Positions 24,001-33,291 of a stretch of 64,000 bases of DNA are shown piece after piece. The DNA is from Ferrimonas kyonanensis DSM 18153. Its GTDB lineage: Bacteria; Pseudomonadota; Gammaproteobacteria; Enterobacterales; Shewanellaceae. Both the position numbers and the translations under genes were made by a program. The stretch covers positions 1-64,000 of the forward strand of contig NZ_KE384366.1 in assembly GCF_000425405.1 (NCBI RefSeq), in the 5' to 3' direction. The notes beneath the pieces are model-generated. The model saw nothing but the letters and a program-made list of their open reading frames with translations, made no database searches and had not been told where the DNA came from. Positions within the stretch are counted from its first letter, which is position 1, and each line of letters opens with the position of its first letter.

Positions 24001-24561
24001 TTACTCTCCCAGCATCGCTTCTTTCAGGTCATCATCAAGCGGGTCATCACCGAGCCAGATCCCCAGCAGCACTTCGCGGAAGGTTTCACCTTCGATGGTC
24101 ACCAGTGATTTGCCATTTTTTCGCAGTTCAACACCACTTTCTGGCAGAGAGACGATGCGGAATCGATCCCCTTCTTGAACCGGTTCGCTAAAGGCGGCGG
24201 TGAACTGATCGACCTTATCCTGAATCTGCGGTAGGCGGTCACCGGCGGACTGCTCAAAGCCCTCCTCCATGCTGGCGGTCATCTTTTCTGAGGTGATCAT
24301 CGAAGAGATGATGTCCAGCTGAATGGCGGCGGCGGATTTGCCTTTCATCAACTCCTCTGCCGGCAGGTTGTCCTGGTTATACAGGCTACTGACATACAGC
24401 TTCATAAAGAACTTTTTACGAATACCGGCACCACGGTGTGGCATTTCAATGCCCTGAACATTCAGGGAGTCATCAATATTAACGTCGGCCACGGTCAATG
24501 CCCAGCTGGGCGCACTCAGGCACAAAGATAAAGGAAGAATCGCAGTTAACAATTTACGCAT
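24001..24561 (-). CDS. Secreted chalcone isomerase-like protein
   Basis: A 186-residue exported protein with a signal peptide (about 1-21, ending P-S-W-A) and a chalcone-isomerase-like fold as in Pfam Chalcone_3: M-K-L-Y-V-S-S-L-Y-N near 55-64, then a late G-E-T-F-R-E-V-L-L-G-I-W-L-G-D-D-P. Bacterial members are periplasmic, not plant-type flavonoid enzymes, and their ligand (perhaps a fatty acid) is unknown. The start is the ATG at 24561; an in-frame GTG three codons upstream is possible. A 20-bp palindrome lies 31 bp before the start and recurs before the divergent membrane-protein gene, which suggests shared control. Confidence 0.82.
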   Translation of the reverse strand: MRKLLTAILPLSLCLSAPSWALTVADVNIDDSLNVQGIEMPHRGAGIRKKFFMKLYVSSLYNQDNLPAEELMKGKSAAAIQLDIISSMITSEKMTASMEEGFEQSAGDRLPQIQDKVDQFTAAFSEPVQEGDRFRIVSLPESGVELRKNGKSLVTIEGETFREVLLGIWLGDDPLDDDLKEAMLGE

Positions 24562-24591
24562 GTAAGCCACCGATTGATTGGGGGAGATTCG

Positions 24592-24915: not shown

Positions 24916-25863
24916 ATGGGCATACCAATTTCCACCTACATCGTTTCGATGGTTGGCTACATAGTATTTCTACTTGTATTAGTAGAGATGATGAGAAGAA
25001 CACCAAGATTCACTTTCGCATTTTGGATGCTCTCTTTACTTACAGCTCCATTATGGGCTGATAACTTAGACGGCTGGTTCCGCTGGGCTAAAACCGTCAG
25101 TGTTTTGATTCCAACTGCCATTATTGTTGGTAGTGCGAGATTGGCTTATCTTTATTACGATAATCCAAACAGAATTCTCAAGTTTTTCCGAAAAGACTGG
25201 GTGCTGTGGTGTCTGTACGGCGTCCTGTTCCTGAATATTGCCGAGGCGACAGTTAAGGATCTGGTTACTCAGAACTACTTTAACTTTATTGCCGGTTGTG
25301 TGCTGCTGGCCACCATGCCGCTGCCAAAATACAAAAACGGCAAGCGTCAGTACTGGCTGATTGGTAAAGATGCACCCAACGATCTGCTGTTTTTCTCTAC
25401 CGCTGCCTGGAACTTCCTCTACACCACCTGGAACATGGCATTTGTGTATGGCGAAAACCCCGGTTACTTCGCCAGCTCCTTCTGTATTCTGATGGCCGCC
25501 GAGCTGTATCCGCTGATCAAAGGCCGACCAGAGCTGTACATCATTGCTCGAGTCTACACCCTGGCGTTCCACATCCTGGTGCGCGCCATGGGCGACCCGT
25601 TTGCCGAGGTGATGGACTCCACCCACTGGGCCAACGACAACGTGTTGATGTTCTGGGGTGTGGCCAACGCCGTACTGCACATCGCCTACCTGATTTACTA
25701 CTTCAAGAAATTCCGTCAGCCCAATGCTGAAGGGGGTAAGGAACCGCCCTATGGCAATCGAACACCGCCGCTGGTGGTGGATGCCAGAACCGAGGAGAGC
25801 AGTCCGCTGCTGGAGACCCAAAAGCCTTCGATGGCCTCTGGTCAGAAACCCGTAACGGCGTAA
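24916..25863 (+). CDS. Polytopic membrane protein, DUF5692-like paralogue A
   Basis: 315 residues with about nine hydrophobic segments and a polar C-terminal tail of about 50 residues. It shares with the two downstream membrane proteins W-F-R-W-A-K (54-59), N-I-A-E-A-T-V-K-D (107-115), W-N-M-A-F-V-Y (172-178) and R-V-Y-T-L-A-F (212-218), so the three are paralogues; it is the most divergent. The start is the ATG at 24916, 11 bp after GAGG; a TTG at 24910 is the alternative. The first 280 bp are AT-rich and use rarer codons (AGA, ATA), unlike the rest of the gene. Function unknown; charged residues inside membrane segments suggest transport or ligand sensing. Confidence 0.7.
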   Translation: MGIPISTYIVSMVGYIVFLLVLVEMMRRTPRFTFAFWMLSLLTAPLWADNLDGWFRWAKTVSVLIPTAIIVGSARLAYLYYDNPNRILKFFRKDWVLWCLYGVLFLNIAEATVKDLVTQNYFNFIAGCVLLATMPLPKYKNGKRQYWLIGKDAPNDLLFFSTAAWNFLYTTWNMAFVYGENPGYFASSFCILMAAELYPLIKGRPELYIIARVYTLAFHILVRAMGDPFAEVMDSTHWANDNVLMFWGVANAVLHIAYLIYYFKKFRQPNAEGGKEPPYGNRTPPLVVDARTEESSPLLETQKPSMASGQKPVTA

Positions 25864-25874
25864 CCGGTAAGGAG

Positions 25875-25896
25875 CGGGGTGGTTACCACCACCCCG
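25875..25896 (+). promoter_or_regulatory. Intercistronic hairpin A/B
   Basis: CGGGGTGGT (25875-25883), loop TACC, ACCACCCCG (25888-25896): a perfect 9-bp GC-rich stem in the 49-bp gap between paralogues A and B, with no T-run. More likely an mRNA processing or stability element than a terminator. The SD of gene B (AGGGA, 25899-25903) lies just 3' of it. Confidence 0.55.
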
Positions 25897-25912
25897 TCAG
25901 GGAATCGATAGC

Positions 25913-27085
25913 ATGAACAGATTAGTGAAAGCATTTCAGGCGATGATGCTGATGTTGCTGCTGACCCCGGCGGCCATGGCAACCGATCTGGAAGGAGTTG
26001 ATTTTCAAGACCAGTTGGTTGGTCAGATTTGGCAAGGAACCATGGATGGAGATCCTGGACAAGGAAGTCTTTTTTTCCGCATGGAGTTTGCCGCTGACAA
26101 CCAGGTTACTGTGACCAAGCAGTACGGTGGTCATAACGTCGTCGAACAGAAGCGCTGGCAGGTCCAGGATCAGCAATTGACCATTACCAGCAGCAGCGGC
26201 CAGATCATTGATGATTTCGATGATGTGTCGATGCCAATGGTTGCGGTTGACCGCTTCCTGTATGAGAAGGGCAACAAGAAGTTTACCGGCCATAAATGGG
26301 TACAGGTGCGAGCCTACGCTCATGTGTTGTTCGTTCTGATTGGCCTGATGGTGATGAACGAAATCTGTCGCCGCTATAAATGGCCAACTGTGGTGATCTT
26401 CTTTGTTCTGCCGATTGTGCTGATTCCCCTGTGGGCCAGCTATGGCGTCAGCTACTGGTTCAAGTGGGTGAAGCTGTATTCGGTCGTGGGTGCCTGTGTG
26501 CTGTTTACATTGATTCGGTACACCAAGGTCGGAGAGATGAAGTGGGCGAAATTCTGTGCGGCAGGTTTCCTGGCCTTGAATATTTCTGAAGCGGTACTTC
26601 AGGATTTCAGCATGGGTTATACCGCCAACGTATTGAACGCCATTGGTGGTATTTTCTCCATTATCACACTGACCGGGTGGGCACAAATTCAAGCCGCGAA
26701 AACCAAAGACAAAGATATGGTTTGGCCGGCCATGACCACCTTCTGGATCATCGCCTACGACGTTTGGAACTTTGCGTTTGTATATTTGAACTTCCCAGGT
26801 TCCGCTACCGCTCAGTTCATGGTGTTAACCGCAGCGACCATTCCTTCTCTGCTTATTACTAAGGGAACTTGGTTGCAGGCCCGGGCGTTTACTCTCGCCC
26901 TGTCATTTATGTATTACTTCACCAACCCCGCGATGTACGAAAGTAATGTTGTGATGTTGCCACGTAATGATGAACTGATGCTGGCAATTGGTTTCTTGAG
27001 TTTCCTGCTGAACACTATTTTGTTCATCCAGGTATATGGAGCGAAATGGCGTAATTACAGACTACAACAAGAAATGGTTAGTTAG
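25913..27085 (+). CDS. DUF5692-like membrane protein B with periplasmic domain
   Basis: 390 residues in two parts. A signal peptide (1-23, A-M-A) is followed by a small beta-rich extracytoplasmic domain (about 24-128: I-W-Q-G-T, F-F-R-M-E-F, V-T-V-T-K-Q-Y-G-G). Then comes a nine-segment membrane domain with M-N-E-I-C-R-R (148-154), W-F-K-W-V-K (182-187), N-I-S-E-A-V-L-Q-D (223-231), A-Y-D-V-W-N-F-A-F-V-Y (281-291) and R-A-F-T-L-A-L (324-330). The extra domain is unique among the three paralogues and may bind a ligand or touch the outer-membrane partner. Function unknown. Confidence 0.75.
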   Translation: MNRLVKAFQAMMLMLLLTPAAMATDLEGVDFQDQLVGQIWQGTMDGDPGQGSLFFRMEFAADNQVTVTKQYGGHNVVEQKRWQVQDQQLTITSSSGQIIDDFDDVSMPMVAVDRFLYEKGNKKFTGHKWVQVRAYAHVLFVLIGLMVMNEICRRYKWPTVVIFFVLPIVLIPLWASYGVSYWFKWVKLYSVVGACVLFTLIRYTKVGEMKWAKFCAAGFLALNISEAVLQDFSMGYTANVLNAIGGIFSIITLTGWAQIQAAKTKDKDMVWPAMTTFWIIAYDVWNFAFVYLNFPGSATAQFMVLTAATIPSLLITKGTWLQARAFTLALSFMYYFTNPAMYESNVVMLPRNDELMLAIGFLSFLLNTILFIQVYGAKWRNYRLQQEMVS

Positions 27086-27134
27086 TTTTATTAGGCACTG
27101 ATTATATAAATACAAAATCTCGATGGAGTTTATG

Positions 27135-27983
27135 ATGAAAAAGACAATTGCTCTCACCTTAGCCGCAATGAGTTTCTGTGCACTGGCTGCGGACGACGCC
27201 GTGGAAGATGCTCCTAATATGGGTAGCCCCACCGAAGTGTATACCTACCTGGGTGCCTCTTACGGTACCGAAGGGGCCAACCTGAAAGGGATGATGGCGC
27301 TGTCGGAAGACAAGGGGGAGTACGCGCAGAAGTCCGGCATCCTGTTTGAGGTGAAAAACATCTTTAACGAAGGCGATAAAAATGACAAGTTTGGCGGCAT
27401 CGAGTACGGCCTGTACCCGGATGGCAGTGTCGGCCCGGTTGGTACCAAGACCAAGGGCAAGGCCAGCAACCGCTCCTATCGTCTGCGTTACGGCACCATC
27501 AACACCAAGAACGGCCTGGGTTTCTCGGTCGACGCGGTGTTTGCGGATCACCCCTTCTTCGGTTCCACCTCGGTGATTCAGGCCGGTCCGGTGGCCACCA
27601 TTCCGGTGGGCGATAAGATTCTGATCTGGCCCATCCTGTATGTGGGTGGCGTGATCATGGACGACAACATTCAGGATCTGAACCCTGAGTGGCCCGACAG
27701 CAGCAGCAGCGGCGTCGACATCGCCTCGACTATCGGTACCGCCATGGTGTACGTCAACTGGAAGTTCACCGACAAGTGGTGGATGCTGGCCAGCTACCGC
27801 TACACCATGGAGCTGAACGGTAAGTCCTGGGATGACGACGTGGCGGATGGCGGCCTGCAGATGGATGCCACCGAGTTTGAAGTGTCCGTCGCTTACCAGC
27901 TGACCAAGAAGCAAAATGTGCGTACTTACTACTCGACTGCCAAGAACGACAGCTTCTGGGTTGAGTACAACTACGCCTTCTAA
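27135..27983 (+). CDS. Outer-membrane beta-barrel protein of the DUF5692 island
   Basis: 282 residues: signal peptide (about 1-18, M-K-K-T-I-A-L-T-L-A-A-M-S-F-C-A-L-A), then alternating strands rich in Gly and aromatics, ending F-W-V-E-Y-N-Y-A-F, the terminal Phe pattern of barrel proteins. It may form a channel or a receptor; I do not recognise a family. The start at 27135 is preferred because GGAG lies 6 bp upstream; ATGs at 27123 and 27132 are also in frame. It sits 49 bp after paralogue B and is the natural outer-membrane partner of the island. Confidence 0.75.
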   Translation: MKKTIALTLAAMSFCALAADDAVEDAPNMGSPTEVYTYLGASYGTEGANLKGMMALSEDKGEYAQKSGILFEVKNIFNEGDKNDKFGGIEYGLYPDGSVGPVGTKTKGKASNRSYRLRYGTINTKNGLGFSVDAVFADHPFFGSTSVIQAGPVATIPVGDKILIWPILYVGGVIMDDNIQDLNPEWPDSSSSGVDIASTIGTAMVYVNWKFTDKWWMLASYRYTMELNGKSWDDDVADGGLQMDATEFEVSVAYQLTKKQNVRTYYSTAKNDSFWVEYNYAF

Positions 27984-27992
27984 TCCACCCCT

Positions 27993-28161
27993 GTGGGATC
28001 TTTGCCGGCTCGGGAGTCACCGTCTCCTGAGTGCCTGGGCTGGCAAAGAGACCCACGCTCCTTTTCGGTCAATGTCGGGTTCATCCTCACCCGACGAGTA
28101 CTGAAATGGGTGACCGTCGTTATTAGCGTCCCGGCGGTCACCCCCTACCTTGACGAGGTAG
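27993..28161 (+). promoter_or_regulatory. Structured leader of four hairpins before paralogue C
   Basis: The 182-bp gap holds four consecutive stems. First, GTGGG-TCTTTGCC (27993-28006) with GGCAAAGAgaCCCAC (28042-28056), enclosing an inner CTCGGGAG/CTCCTGAG helix. Second, GTCGGGT/ACCCGAC (28074-28080, 28089-28095). Third, GGGTGACCG/CGGTCACCC (28108-28116, 28135-28143). Fourth, CTACCT/AGGTAG (28145-28150, 28156-28161), which contains the GAGG ribosome binding site of the next gene. A riboswitch, a translational control element or an attenuator is possible. Hand-folded only. Confidence 0.5.
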
Positions 28162-28165
28162 CATT

Positions 28166-29083
28166 ATGTTTCTGTTTGAACCCATTCCCTGGTACTCCTG
28201 GGCGGCCTTTCTGGGCGTGCTGGTGGCGTTGATTATTCTGAATGAGATCTCCCGCCGCAGCATGTGGGCCGGCATTGCCTGTTTCATTGTCCTGCCATTG
28301 ATTCTGACCTTTACCGTGTGGCCGAAAACCACCTCGGCAGAAGGTTCCAGTGTCGGCACCTGGTTCCATTGGGCCAAGGTGTATTCCTCGCTGGCGGGCT
28401 GCGTCGGCTTTATGGCCATTCGGTACATCAAGGGGGCGGCGGACAAGAAGTGGGTGCTGATGTTTCCACCTGCGATCCTGGCGATCAACATCGCCGAGGC
28501 GGTGGTCCGTGACTTTCAGTGCTTCAGTTTTAACGGCATGGTCGATGGCATCATGATCACCGGCGGTGTCTGGAACATCATGAACGGCGTGGCCGGCATT
28601 CTCAATATCATCGCCATCTGTGGCTGGGCCGGCATCTTCATCAGTAACGACAAATTCAAAGACATGCTGTGGCCAGACATGCTGTGGTTCTGGATCGTCG
28701 CTTACGATCTGTGGAATTTCGCTTACGTCTACAACTGCGTCGGCGATCATGCATTTTATGCCGGAGGAGCCTTGCTCCTGTCTTGCACCATTCCGGCTTT
28801 CTTCATGCGTAAAGGCGCGTGGTTGCAGCACCGGGCCCACACGCTGGGATTCTGGATGATGTTCGTCATGTGCTTCCCGAGTTTTGTGGATACCTCGATG
28901 TTTGCGGTCAAGGCCTCCAACAACCCGCAAGCCCTGTGGTGGGTCTCCGCCATTGCGCTGGCGTCCAATGTGGCCCTGGTGGTGTACCAGTTCCGTCGCA
29001 TCGCTCAGGCTAAGCTTCATCCTCTGAAAGATGAGTTGTATCAGCATCTTCCTGCCTATCAAAAGGTGGCGGCGTCCCGTTAG
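28166..29083 (+). CDS. DUF5692-family membrane protein C
   Basis: 305 residues, about eight or nine membrane segments, no signal peptide. It carries the shared set L-N-E-I-S-R-R (25-31), W-F-H-W-A-K (66-71), N-I-A-E-A-V-V-R-D (108-116), A-Y-D-L-W-N-F-A-Y-V-Y (179-189) and R-A-H-T-L-G-F (223-229), and resembles the DUF5692 family most closely of the three. The ATG follows a GAGG held inside a hairpin. The 3' end overlaps the convergent histidine kinase gene by 74 bp. Function unknown; last gene of the island. Confidence 0.78.
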   Translation: MFLFEPIPWYSWAAFLGVLVALIILNEISRRSMWAGIACFIVLPLILTFTVWPKTTSAEGSSVGTWFHWAKVYSSLAGCVGFMAIRYIKGAADKKWVLMFPPAILAINIAEAVVRDFQCFSFNGMVDGIMITGGVWNIMNGVAGILNIIAICGWAGIFISNDKFKDMLWPDMLWFWIVAYDLWNFAYVYNCVGDHAFYAGGALLLSCTIPAFFMRKGAWLQHRAHTLGFWMMFVMCFPSFVDTSMFAVKASNNPQALWWVSAIALASNVALVVYQFRRIAQAKLHPLKDELYQHLPAYQKVAASR

Positions 29084-31421
29084 CGGTTCGCTTCCCTTTT
29101 CGCTGTACTGCGGCCGGCTCTCCTTGCATTGGTCCCATCGGGCCGGCCGCTCCCTCCCCGTCGATGCGGTGCCGATCCTGAGTATCCAGCAACCCAGGCA
29201 CGATCCTGGATAAGCCGGACAACAGGTGTTCCCGGGTGATGGGTTTGGTGATGCAGCCTTCAAAGCCGGACGCCAGTAGGTTTGGGTCCCGCTGCGACAG
29301 TACATTGGCGGTCAGGGCAATCACCGGGGTGCCGTGGTGCTGAGGCAGTTGACGGCGAAGGGCCTGGCAGGTTTGGTAGCCGTCCATGCCCGGCATTTGG
29401 ATATCCAGCAGAATCAGATCAAACCCCTGGGTCTGCAATAACTCAATTGCCTGTTTCCCCCCGTCTGCCACCGTGGCGGTGGCCCCCATTTTGGTCAGTA
29501 TCTGCTTAGCCACCAGCCGATTGGTCATGACGTCATCGACCACCAAAATCCGCCTGTCGCGCAACGGGTGACCATTGTCCCGAAGGACAGGTTGCGATTC
29601 GGCCGGTGCCTGTTGGTGCAGCAGTTGCTGCAGGTCTTTGGCGGAGACCGGAAGGCTAATGGCGGTGAACTCCGGTGTCGGTGTGCTCCCTTCGGAGTCG
29701 ATGCTGTAGAGTTTCCACTTCCTCCGTCGCGGTGACAGGGTTGGTTTCAGTTGCCGCCACTGTTGTCGCCCTTGTGCGTCGGCCAGGATAACGTGAAGCA
29801 GTCCCGGCTCGTCGGTGTGGCTCAGCATGGCGGGATTGTCGCTGGCATCGAAATGCTGGCGGCGAAGAATGTCCAGCAGGGCGGGAACGGCCACCCGGTC
29901 CTGCCCGAGCACCAGCACCTGTCCCAGGCTGGGGCGGGATTGAGGAACGGTGTCGTCAATGGGCAGTGAAAATCGAAACGTGGTCCCGGCGCCCGGCGTA
30001 CTGGTGACCGTCAGTTCTCCCCCCAGCAAGGTTGCCAGACTGTGGCTGATGGCCAGTCCCAGGCCGGTGCCTCCGAAGCGGCGGGAGATGGAGGAGTCGG
30101 CTTGGGTGAAAGCATCGAACAGGTGCTTCTGGGCCTCAGGTGAGATGCCGATGCCGGTGTCGGTCACCGTGATCAGCAGGGAGTCGGCGTTGGTGCGACT
30201 CAGTCGCAGTTCGACATGACCCTGTGTGGTGAATTTGCAGGCGTTGCTGAGCAGGTTGCACAGTATCTGATGCAAGCGGAAGCGATCGCTGTGTATTACT
30301 TCCGGCGCACTGGGATCGCAATGCACCCACAGGGCCAGGGATTTATCGCGGCAATGCTTGGCGAACAAGTGGTGCAGTTCCTCCAACAGCTCGTCGACGG
30401 CAAAGTGGCGTTTGTCCAACACCAGTTTTCCGGCTTTGAGCTTGCTGTGGTCCATGATGTCATTGACCAGGGTCAGCAGGGTGCTGGAGGCCTGACCGAT
30501 GTGGCTGACCTGCTCTCGCTGCTGAGGACTCAAGGAGCTTTGACTCAATAGGTCGGTAAAACCGCTGATGGCGTTCAGCGGGGTGCGCATCTCGTGACTC
30601 ATGGTGGCCAGGAAAAAAGTTTTTAGCTCAGAGATTCGGGCCAGTTCGTTGTTGAGTTTACTGATGGAGCGCAGTTTTCGTATCAGTTCGATGGCAGACA
30701 GGGCGATCAAGGTGAGTACCAGCATCACGAAAGCCAATGCCTGTTGATTATCGTAGTGCTTGGCGGTGCGGTGGTTGGTTTGTATCGCTTGAGCCAGAGC
30801 CTCCGGCGTGCGCGTTTGCTGCAGCGCCGTCAGGTGGTATTGATGTGCGGCTTGGGAGCGCGCTAGCGCTTGGCCGTGAACGTTAATCTGACTCTGGTTT
30901 CCTGGCGGAAGTGACGCGAGCCATCGTGGTGAGGGTTTCGCAATTGCGGCAGAGTCCCGGTGTCTACTGAGGTAGTGGCGTTCCAGCCAAGCGGCATTGA
31001 GCTTCTGCGTCGGGGAGCCGCGGTGCTCTATCTGGAGAAACTGGGCCCGCAGTGCTCGAGCACTGACGGCCATGGCGACTTGGTGTTGTTGCAGGGCGTG
31101 GTAGTGGCGAGCAAACTGGGTCAGTTTCAGTTTCAGTGTTAGCTGTTGATGCTGTGGGGCACTGTACACCTCGTCACGGCTGTTATTGATGAGGTAGTGA
31201 TGCAACCAGCCCGAGTAGTCCTGGTTGCGCCGATTCTCCTGCCCCTGAGTCATCAGATCATTGAGGGCGGCGGTGATCAGGTATTCTGCCTCGGTCAGGC
31301 TGGTTTGTTGATGAGTCAGTTGCTTCAGTTGCAGGCGGCCGTAGACGATGATGGCGATCATGGCCGCGCTGACGATCAGTGCAACGGCAGCCAACGGCTT
31401 CAGGCGGGTGGCGAATGTCAT
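29010..31421 (-). CDS. Hybrid sensor histidine kinase
   Basis: 803 residues. Two membrane segments (about 9-28 and 228-246) bracket a 200-residue periplasmic sensor rich in Gln and His, with no recognised sensor fold. Then come HisKA with the phospho-acceptor His276 in M-S-H-E-M-R-T-P-L-N, an ATPase domain (N-L-L-S-N-A-C-K-F, D-T-G-I-G-I, G-T-G-L-G-L-A), a degenerate middle receiver-like stretch (about 515-610) and an intact receiver with Asp673 in L-L-D-I-Q-M-P-G-M-D-G. A polar tail of about 55 residues overlaps paralogue C antisense. The ATG overlaps the stop of the peroxidase gene by four bases, so the two are translationally coupled. Confidence 0.92.
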   Translation of the reverse strand: MTFATRLKPLAAVALIVSAAMIAIIVYGRLQLKQLTHQQTSLTEAEYLITAALNDLMTQGQENRRNQDYSGWLHHYLINNSRDEVYSAPQHQQLTLKLKLTQFARHYHALQQHQVAMAVSARALRAQFLQIEHRGSPTQKLNAAWLERHYLSRHRDSAAIAKPSPRWLASLPPGNQSQINVHGQALARSQAAHQYHLTALQQTRTPEALAQAIQTNHRTAKHYDNQQALAFVMLVLTLIALSAIELIRKLRSISKLNNELARISELKTFFLATMSHEMRTPLNAISGFTDLLSQSSLSPQQREQVSHIGQASSTLLTLVNDIMDHSKLKAGKLVLDKRHFAVDELLEELHHLFAKHCRDKSLALWVHCDPSAPEVIHSDRFRLHQILCNLLSNACKFTTQGHVELRLSRTNADSLLITVTDTGIGISPEAQKHLFDAFTQADSSISRRFGGTGLGLAISHSLATLLGGELTVTSTPGAGTTFRFSLPIDDTVPQSRPSLGQVLVLGQDRVAVPALLDILRRQHFDASDNPAMLSHTDEPGLLHVILADAQGRQQWRQLKPTLSPRRRKWKLYSIDSEGSTPTPEFTAISLPVSAKDLQQLLHQQAPAESQPVLRDNGHPLRDRRILVVDDVMTNRLVAKQILTKMGATATVADGGKQAIELLQTQGFDLILLDIQMPGMDGYQTCQALRRQLPQHHGTPVIALTANVLSQRDPNLLASGFEGCITKPITREHLLSGLSRIVPGLLDTQDRHRIDGEGAAGPMGPMQGEPAAVQRKGKRTANGTPPPFDRQEDADTTHLSEDEA

Positions 31422-32404: not shown

Positions 32405-32655
32405 ACTCAATCCTTGAGTGTGTTTATCTCCTTGTAACCTATAGGTGCCAAGATAGCCATTGTCCAAAAAAACACCAAAAAATGGCCTGTTGCAGGGTCA
32501 TTGTTGGCAAGAAATAGGGTAAAGTGACAAGTGTAACTGGTTGACCCTGGTTCAGGTTCTGCTTGAGCTGGCCGGCATTAGCCGATAGCTTAAAAGCTGC
32601 TGTAGTGAACCCCGGAGATCAAGTGATTGATTCAGTGGGAGCGAAGGATTGCGAG

Positions 32656-33291
32656 ATGACTACAAAATTTTCCAAAGTGTTGTTTATACAGGGAGATGAC
32701 AGCGCCAACTCCCTGCCAATGCTGTGCAAGACCCTGGAGGTGGAGATCGAGGTCCGCAACCAGCCCGGGGACGTGCGTGCATCGGAACTGAACCGGCCGG
32801 ATCTGTTGCTGCTGGTGTCACAGGACTCCTGTGGTTTAAACCGCAATGGCGTGCCGGTGTGGGTGCAGCGGTTGCTGCCAGAGCAATCGGTGGCGTTGTT
32901 CGGCGTCACCGAAGACAGTGTCGATCCGGTGCACCTGCTGACTCAGGGAGTGAAGGGGGTGCTGTACCACAACGATCGGGTCGACATGAGCCTGTCGGCG
33001 CTGCGGGCGCTGATTCAGGGGGAGCTGTGGTTTTCACGGGCGACTCTGGAGCAGGCGGTGTGCCAGATGATCGGTGCCCAGGCGCAACAGAGCAGTCGCC
33101 AGGAGCAAGACAAACTGACCAATCGTGAGCAGAGCGTGGTACGACTGGTGGCCCTTGGAGCCAGAAACAAAGAGATAGCCCGCAAGTTGTTCATCAGCGA
33201 GTACACGGTTAAGGCTCACCTGGCCTCCATCTTTCGTAAAACCGAAACCCGCAACCGGGTTGAGCTGGTGAGTAAGCTCGGCCTGGCCTGA
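32656..33291 (+). CDS. csgD: CsgD-like LuxR-family curli regulator
   Basis: 211 residues: an N-terminal receiver-like domain without a clear phospho-acceptor set, and a C-terminal LuxR helix-turn-helix (about 150-211; L-T-N-R-E-Q-S-V-V, K-E-I-A-R-K-L-F-I-S-E-Y-T-V-K-A-H-L). CsgD in enterobacteria has the same architecture and activates csgBA. The start is the ATG at 32656, 7 bp after AAGGA; an upstream TTG would add 31 residues. It is convergent with csgA and divergent from the peroxidase operon. The curli context makes CsgD the best name. Confidence 0.85.
   Translation: MTTKFSKVLFIQGDDSANSLPMLCKTLEVEIEVRNQPGDVRASELNRPDLLLLVSQDSCGLNRNGVPVWVQRLLPEQSVALFGVTEDSVDPVHLLTQGVKGVLYHNDRVDMSLSALRALIQGELWFSRATLEQAVCQMIGAQAQQSSRQEQDKLTNREQSVVRLVALGARNKEIARKLFISEYTVKAHLASIFRKTETRNRVELVSKLGLA

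Follow-up and report, generated by a model that had tools for sequence, protein, structure and literature searches.

DUF5692-type membrane proteins of Ferrimonas kyonanensis DSM 18153: a conserved P1-P2-barrel unit, an independent P3 and a possible role in unsaturated-lipid isomerization

The window studied here is a stretch of 64,000 nucleotides from Ferrimonas kyonanensis DSM 18153 (contig NZ_KE384366.1, positions 1 to 64,000), which encodes three polytopic membrane proteins related to the Pfam family DUF5692 (PF18948), here named P1, P2 and P3, around a barrel-like protein. Three described systems come closest to this locus. The first is the oleABCD cluster, which makes long polyunsaturated olefins in bacteria such as Moritella. 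P1/P2-type genes directly precede it in two Moritella genomes, whereas none of the 13 Ferrimonas genomes has OleC over the cut-off. The second is the membrane-bound linoleate isomerase forming c9,t11 conjugated linoleic acid (CLA), such as BBI of Bifidobacterium breve. It is a membrane protein like DUF5692, a single DUF5692 gene is present in the genome that we identify as B. breve, and downstream-type reductases stand beside some P3 genes; the bifidobacterial DUF5692 members differ in being changed at E111, W69 and S74. Deletion of bbi in B. breve CCFM683 brought linoleic acid conversion to 0%, and its transfer to L. plantarum gave 78.64% conversion (PMC11812354). The third is the isr operon of Acetobacterium and relatives, in which IsrA, a putative isoprene reductase, stands with HypA and HypB; DUF5692 genes often lie near genes of IsrA homologues (co-occurrence 0.40 in 988; PMC10134865). 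The isr operon differs from the present case in that the window genome lacks IsrA and the P1-P2-barrel arrangement is another context. A full-text search of papers outside subscription returned one that mentions DUF5692, and the passage concerned names no function for it. The features of the locus are as follows.

24001-24570, minus strand: chalcone-isomerase-like protein with a signal-like N-terminus, divergent from P1 (Pfam Chalcone_3, PF16036, 164.4 bits, over the curated cut-off of 27)
24916-25863, plus strand: P1, polytopic membrane protein of its own DUF5692-like clade (profile comparison; clade support 100/100)
25913-27085, plus strand: P2, with a signal-like segment, a putative lipocalin-like domain and a DUF5692 membrane domain (190 bits)
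about 25994-26302 (residues ~28-130 of P2), plus strand: predicted small beta-barrel (lipocalin-like) domain, from the model and structural matches
27123-27983, plus strand: barrel-like signal-bearing protein, probably of the outer membrane (sequence pattern; orthologue with P1-P2 in 15/15 module genomes)
28166-29083, plus strand: P3, DUF5692 proper (460.9 bits), a stand-alone gene in other organisms

A sequence-only reading of the window had described three homologous polytopic proteins around a barrel-like protein, and this description stands. The open reading frames (ORFs) are in place and four motifs occur in all three proteins: WFRWAK, NIAEATVKD, WNMAFVY and RVYTLAF in P1; WFKWVK, NISEAVLQD, WNFAFVY and RAFTLAL in P2; WFHWAK, NIAEAVVRD, WNFAYVY and RAHTLGF in P3. 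The gaps are 49 bp between P1 and P2, 37 bp between P2 and the barrel gene and 182 bp between the barrel gene and P3, with 345 bp separating the divergent chalcone-isomerase-like gene from P1. The product of 27123-27983 is probably an outer-membrane barrel, as read from its signal-like N-terminus and strand pattern; its sole Pfam match was OMP_b-brl (PF13505) with 15.3 bits, below the cut-off of 28.7.

Family membership, phylogeny and conserved residues

P2 and P3 are clear members of PF18948, far over its curated cut-off of 27. P1 had no match to this model at E<=1 and did not reach the cut-off; it represents a clade missed by the Pfam model, and because of this it can be called DUF5692-like only through other comparisons. 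The proposal that the whole trio is DUF5692-like was therefore borne out by the profile search for P2 and P3, and P1 joined through profile comparison. In BLASTP, window P3 matched the P2 orthologue of F. sediminum (99% identical to window P2) at 2e-44, and window P1 matched window P3 at 2e-6. The P1 and P2 families, compared as profiles with no shared rows, gave a probability of 99.5% and an E value of 2e-22. Comparison of the P1 family with the P3-led profile A3 gave 100% and 6e-52, a figure inflated because A3 also contains three P1 rows and four P2 rows.

A 44-row maximum-likelihood tree, drawn with a midpoint root and with long branches flagged, contained three clades with support of 100/100 (P1), 97/92 (P2) and 92/96 (P3), and the window proteins each fell in a different one. 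The copies are therefore old and not the result of local duplication, in line with the earlier view that they are diverged copies and not plain gene duplication. Judged from the tree, P1, P2 and P3 are old subfamilies brought together. A plain recent or local duplication of the trio is ruled out by the three separate clades. Members of all three clades were also found in Clostridium sp. CF012.

The window genome (G000) contains seven DUF5692 matches over the cut-off, and 7/13 Ferrimonas genomes contain at least one. Window P3 is 99% identical to its F. sediminum relative. Among the best 80 of 309 P3 relatives examined, those outside Ferrimonas showed 61-72% identity and came from Chloroflexota, Spirochaetota, Bacillota, Actinomycetota and other groups; P3 relatives are also frequent where there is no outer membrane, as in Gram-positives. 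Tandem pairs of P3-type genes were observed in Peptostreptococcaceae (L034:8001-9947, L039:8001-9951 and L040:8001-9947).

Alignment of 72 members revealed 22 invariant columns, including, in P3 numbering, W66, F67, W69 and K71; N108, I109, E111 and A112; W183 and N184; and R223, T226 and L227. In 47 further actinobacterial loci, which share at least one genome (L138 = L077) with the 72-member set, fifteen of the 22 positions were kept throughout (W66, F67, K71, N108, I109, A112, N137, N140, G144, Y180, W183, N184, R223, T226 and L227). D116 was kept in 46/47, E27, R30 and D166 in 41/47, E111 and S74 in just 20/47, and W69 in 14/47. Conservation of the motifs in wider alignments thus holds on the whole, with exceptions in bifidobacteria, whose rows appear from their shared substitutions to form a coherent subfamily.

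The AlphaFold2 model of P3 had a mean predicted local distance difference test score (pLDDT) of 85.6, and the fifteen fully kept positions fall in its predicted helices. The earlier suggestion of conserved polar residues inside membrane helices was supported, for predicted helices, by the 72-member alignment, this model and the 47 further loci. Foldseek found no match to the P3 model at E<=0.001; a second structural comparison gave receptor- and rhodopsin-like bundles with a best Z of 6.6, which may reflect any helical bundle. The P2 model was less certain (mean pLDDT 70.3; N-terminal domain ~50-76), and residues ~28-130 were modelled as a small beta-barrel. Among the structural entries listed at Z>=8, 15 of 16 align on residues 1-132, and just some of them are lipocalins; the best rows for this domain include proteins of lipocalin-like or lipid-binding type alongside designed barrels and ToxS. 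Foldseek found no match to residues 28-130 at E<=0.001. Among sequences of solved structures, the DUF5692 profile A2 matched nothing at E<=1, the P2 profile gave weak matches to Antarctic rhodopsin (0.55) and an outer surface protein (0.89), the barrel gave nothing useful, and the chalcone-isomerase-like protein matched nothing at E<=0.1.

A conserved P1-P2-barrel unit and an independent P3

Fifteen distinct genomes with the P1-P2-barrel module were examined: the window genome and those of loci L009, L010, L060 (= L093), L094, L096, L098, L097 and L123-L129. Neighbouring genes were taken from ORF calling, in which antisense ORFs of G+C-rich loci are sometimes counted as genes, so the neighbour tallies given here are rough; a tblastn recheck covered the barrel, P1 and the chalcone-isomerase-like protein. 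P1, P2 and the barrel gene are contiguous and in the same order in all fifteen. The chalcone-isomerase-like gene lies within 0.4 kb of them in 14/15 and was not found in the remaining one (L125). It is divergent from P1 in 7/7 Ferrimonas module genomes, and stands 3' of the barrel gene on the same strand in 7/8 module genomes outside Ferrimonas.

Through a survey of 148 genomes of the order, barrel matches were found in 24, of which nine were close (E<1e-30) and the other 15 reached 5e-9 at best. In each of these nine, a P2-type gene lies no more than ~0.5 kb from the close barrel orthologue; 13 P2-type matches were found in total, four of them without a barrel. There were eight P3-type matches (>400 bits), and only that of the window stands beside a barrel gene. 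P3 is absent from 4/9 barrel genomes and located elsewhere in four more. Only in five Ferrimonas genomes (G000, G005, G008, G011 and G012) does it directly adjoin the module. The P1-P2-barrel module is thus one conserved unit and P3 is an independent gene. The earlier proposal of a co-occurring trio plus barrel holds for two copies, P1 and P2, and fails for P3, which is found widely as a lone gene. P1 and P2 also occur without a barrel: in Clostridium sp. CF012 a P1-type gene (50% identity) stands next to a P2-type one (48%), with no barrel match in the 17 kb examined.

Some further genes were observed beside these loci. A bile-acid-symporter-family gene (L089:6657-7670) lies upstream of the second P1-P2 pair of its genome, a pair without a barrel gene. 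A chemoreceptor-like gene (cluster c9) follows the chalcone-isomerase-like gene in L123, L126, L127, L128 and L097, and Pfam found the MCP domain in those of L123 and L127. In the Moritella loci, an enoyl-CoA hydratase-type gene is divergent from P1, with the family confirmed in L127.

Possible function in unsaturated-lipid chemistry

Homology, conserved residues, module composition, phylogeny and gene neighbourhoods are established here, and the neighbourhoods point to unsaturated-lipid chemistry over transport or sensing. Considering them together, we put forward, at about even chances, that DUF5692 proteins are intramembrane isomerases which shift double bonds in polyunsaturated fatty acyl chains by chemistry of the linoleate-isomerase type.

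The first ground for this is that P3-type genes adjoin genes of IsrA-like conjugated-diene reductases. Such adjacency was found in 6/80 loci (L019, L020, L024, L051, L055 and L071), and in a seventh, L029 of Moritella dasanensis, the IsrA-like gene lies ~7 kb from the P3-type gene. The P3 neighbour tallies exclude the Ferrimonas loci L009, L010 and L060; the downstream tally covers 71 loci, after dropping three tandem DUF5692 copies from 74, and in five of these cobW/HypB directly follows P3. A regulator gene stands directly upstream of P3 in 37/76 loci (TetR, by TetR_N, 28; LysR 5; MarR 4), which would fit an inducible detoxification gene. P1/P2-type genes directly precede oleA-B-C-D in Moritella L130 (G080:C14) and L131 (G129:C1). 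In L130 a P2-type gene with a P1-type partner is followed by an OleA-like synthase, an alpha/beta hydrolase, OleC and OleD; in L131 no P1-type partner of the P2-type gene was found. Synthase, OleC and OleD models were over the cut-off in these clusters. The isomerase proposal is also suggested by the P2 small beta-barrel, whose structural matches include lipid-binding lipocalin-like proteins, and by the invariant polar residues, which fall in predicted helices.

The remaining ground is the presence of DUF5692 in a genome identified as B. breve, the species with a genetically proven linoleate isomerase. DUF5692 was found in 31/297 Actinomycetales genomes, five of which carry a bifidobacterial 16S primer site. 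Among 112 genomes of the bifidobacterial genus, 37 have a DUF5692 match, 33 of them over the cut-off. We take G315 as B. breve, considering that both B. breve 16S primers are present as a 288-bp pair; the first primer also matches G477 and G462, the latter without the second primer in the stretch examined. G315 contains one DUF5692 gene and no IsrA at E<=1e-100, the threshold of our IsrA genome searches; this absence is in keeping with the CLA accumulation for which B. breve is known. A 16S signature pattern matched 56/112 bifidobacterial genomes; the species labels are tentative and the signatures not unique, as those assigned to B. bifidum and B. longum turn up again in DUF5692-positive genomes of larger size (G486, G495; G520, G546). 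Under these tentative labels, DUF5692 is present in B. dentium (G484, a label without 16S signature basis) and B. pseudocatenulatum (G513), has one match below the cut-off in B. catenulatum (G476), and has no match in B. adolescentis (G460), B. bifidum (G470), B. longum (G497) and B. angulatum (G465).

Several observations weigh against the isomerase proposal. The tie between bbi and DUF5692 is one of shared species, B. breve as identified here, and not of sequence, and the G315 protein is just 42% identical to P3. All 22 bifidobacterial rows (among loci L146-L188) carry I111, Y69 and A74 in place of E111, W69 and S74. CLA production and DUF5692 presence do not separate cleanly. B. breve and B. 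dentium have been described as efficient CLA producers (PMC13365329) and a rumen B. adolescentis yielded mainly a 10-hydroxy acid (PMC7339423), but according to a review the c9,t11 isomer is also produced by B. adolescentis, B. bifidum, B. longum and B. catenulatum (PMC11723137), and the tentative genomes of these have no DUF5692 over the cut-off. The IsrA adjacency offers few independent cases because five of the six loci (L019, L020, L024, L051 and L055) are Chloroflexota. IsrA is present in 8/15 module genomes and thus absent from seven; it was not found in the window genome at the same threshold, nor in any of the six Ferrimonas genomes without the module, and was found in G161 and G162. 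The ole neighbourhood occurs in 2/11 genomes with OleC over the cut-off. A regulator beside a membrane protein would equally suit a transporter. In Ferrimonas, neither PfaD nor OleC was over the cut-off in any of 13 genomes; any polyunsaturated fatty acid (PUFA) or olefin substrate would therefore be external, and an endogenous one is ruled out on the same counts. PUFA synthesis does not predict DUF5692 either: in genus g10, one of seven PfaD-positive genomes (G131) has DUF5692 over the cut-off.

If DUF5692 proteins are isomerases, the acyl chain would lie inside the helix bundle, its carboxylate held by the invariant Arg and Lys. Moving a proton along the pentadiene, with no cofactor needed, would fall to three invariant residue types, Asn, Tyr and Trp, together with the nearly invariant Asp. 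P3 would work as an isomerase on its own, and in some organisms its product would pass to a conjugated-diene reductase. In the Gram-negative envelope a paired form, P1 with P2, would act on lipid in the inner membrane; the barrel would let the lipid in, and the P2 lipocalin-like domain and the chalcone-isomerase-like protein would bind it or pass it on. Proteins of the chalcone-isomerase fold can bind fatty acids. We infer the activity, substrate, mechanism and membrane side, as well as the roles of the barrel, the lipocalin-like domain and the chalcone-isomerase-like protein.

More tentatively, DUF5692 could be a general family of membrane-bound PUFA isomerases that includes the missing gene of the classical linoleate isomerase of anaerobes. 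Ferrimonas, Moritella, Shewanella and relatives would then possess a dedicated envelope version that conjugates polyunsaturated lipids of external origin at the cell envelope. Its parts would be two dissimilar isomerase subunits, of which one is fused to a lipocalin-like domain, together with an outer-membrane barrel and a lipid carrier resembling chalcone isomerase. If right, the isomerase proposal would assign an enzyme activity to a domain so far without known function that is present across several phyla, name a testable gene family for membrane-bound linoleate isomerases, explain the adjacency of DUF5692 to conjugated-diene reductases, and add a new Gram-negative envelope module for unsaturated lipids.

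The main rival, which we hold to be rather unlikely, is that DUF5692 proteins transport or flip an amphipathic molecule such as an unsaturated fatty acid or an isoprenoid, with P1-P2-barrel as an import or export route and P3 as a pump under its own repressor. Polytopic proteins, the tie of P1-P2 to a barrel and the TetR, LysR or MarR gene adjoining P3 in 37/76 loci all suit it, but among the top 25 neighbour families no nucleotide-binding or other energising partner recurs nearby, and in several cases the neighbours are lipid enzymes.

A role as lipid receptors or sensors signalling to a partner appears improbable. The chemoreceptor gene in five loci (MCP domain confirmed in two) agrees with it, as do the receptors and rhodopsins closest to P3 in structure; however, these rows have Z<7, no better than a common helical arrangement, and the top 25 neighbour families include no signalling partner common to P3 loci. 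A shade more doubtful is that P3 serves IsrA as a membrane partner that supplies electrons or substrate. The adjacency in 6/80 loci and the published network (PMC10134865) speak for this partnership, but P3-type genes occur without IsrA in G315 and in Ferrimonas G000, G005, G008, G011 and G012. Most improbable is the proposal of the sequence-only reading that P1, P2, P3 and the barrel form one multi-part envelope complex: all four genes are contiguous in the five Ferrimonas genomes named, but P3 stands beside the barrel in 1/8 cases, is missing or distant in eight of nine barrel genomes, is common in Gram-positives, and is set off by 182 bp against 37-49 bp inside the unit.

Other genes beside P3

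A promoter and terminator scan found sites no more numerous than in shuffles. The 3' end of P3 (29010-29083) overlaps by 74 bp the 3' end of a convergent hybrid histidine kinase gene, and two further genes follow beyond it.

29010-31421, minus strand: hybrid histidine kinase, 803 aa, its 3' end overlapping P3
31418-32467, minus strand: MauG-type di-haem cytochrome, beyond the histidine kinase gene
32563-33291, plus strand: LuxR-type regulator, beyond the MauG-type gene

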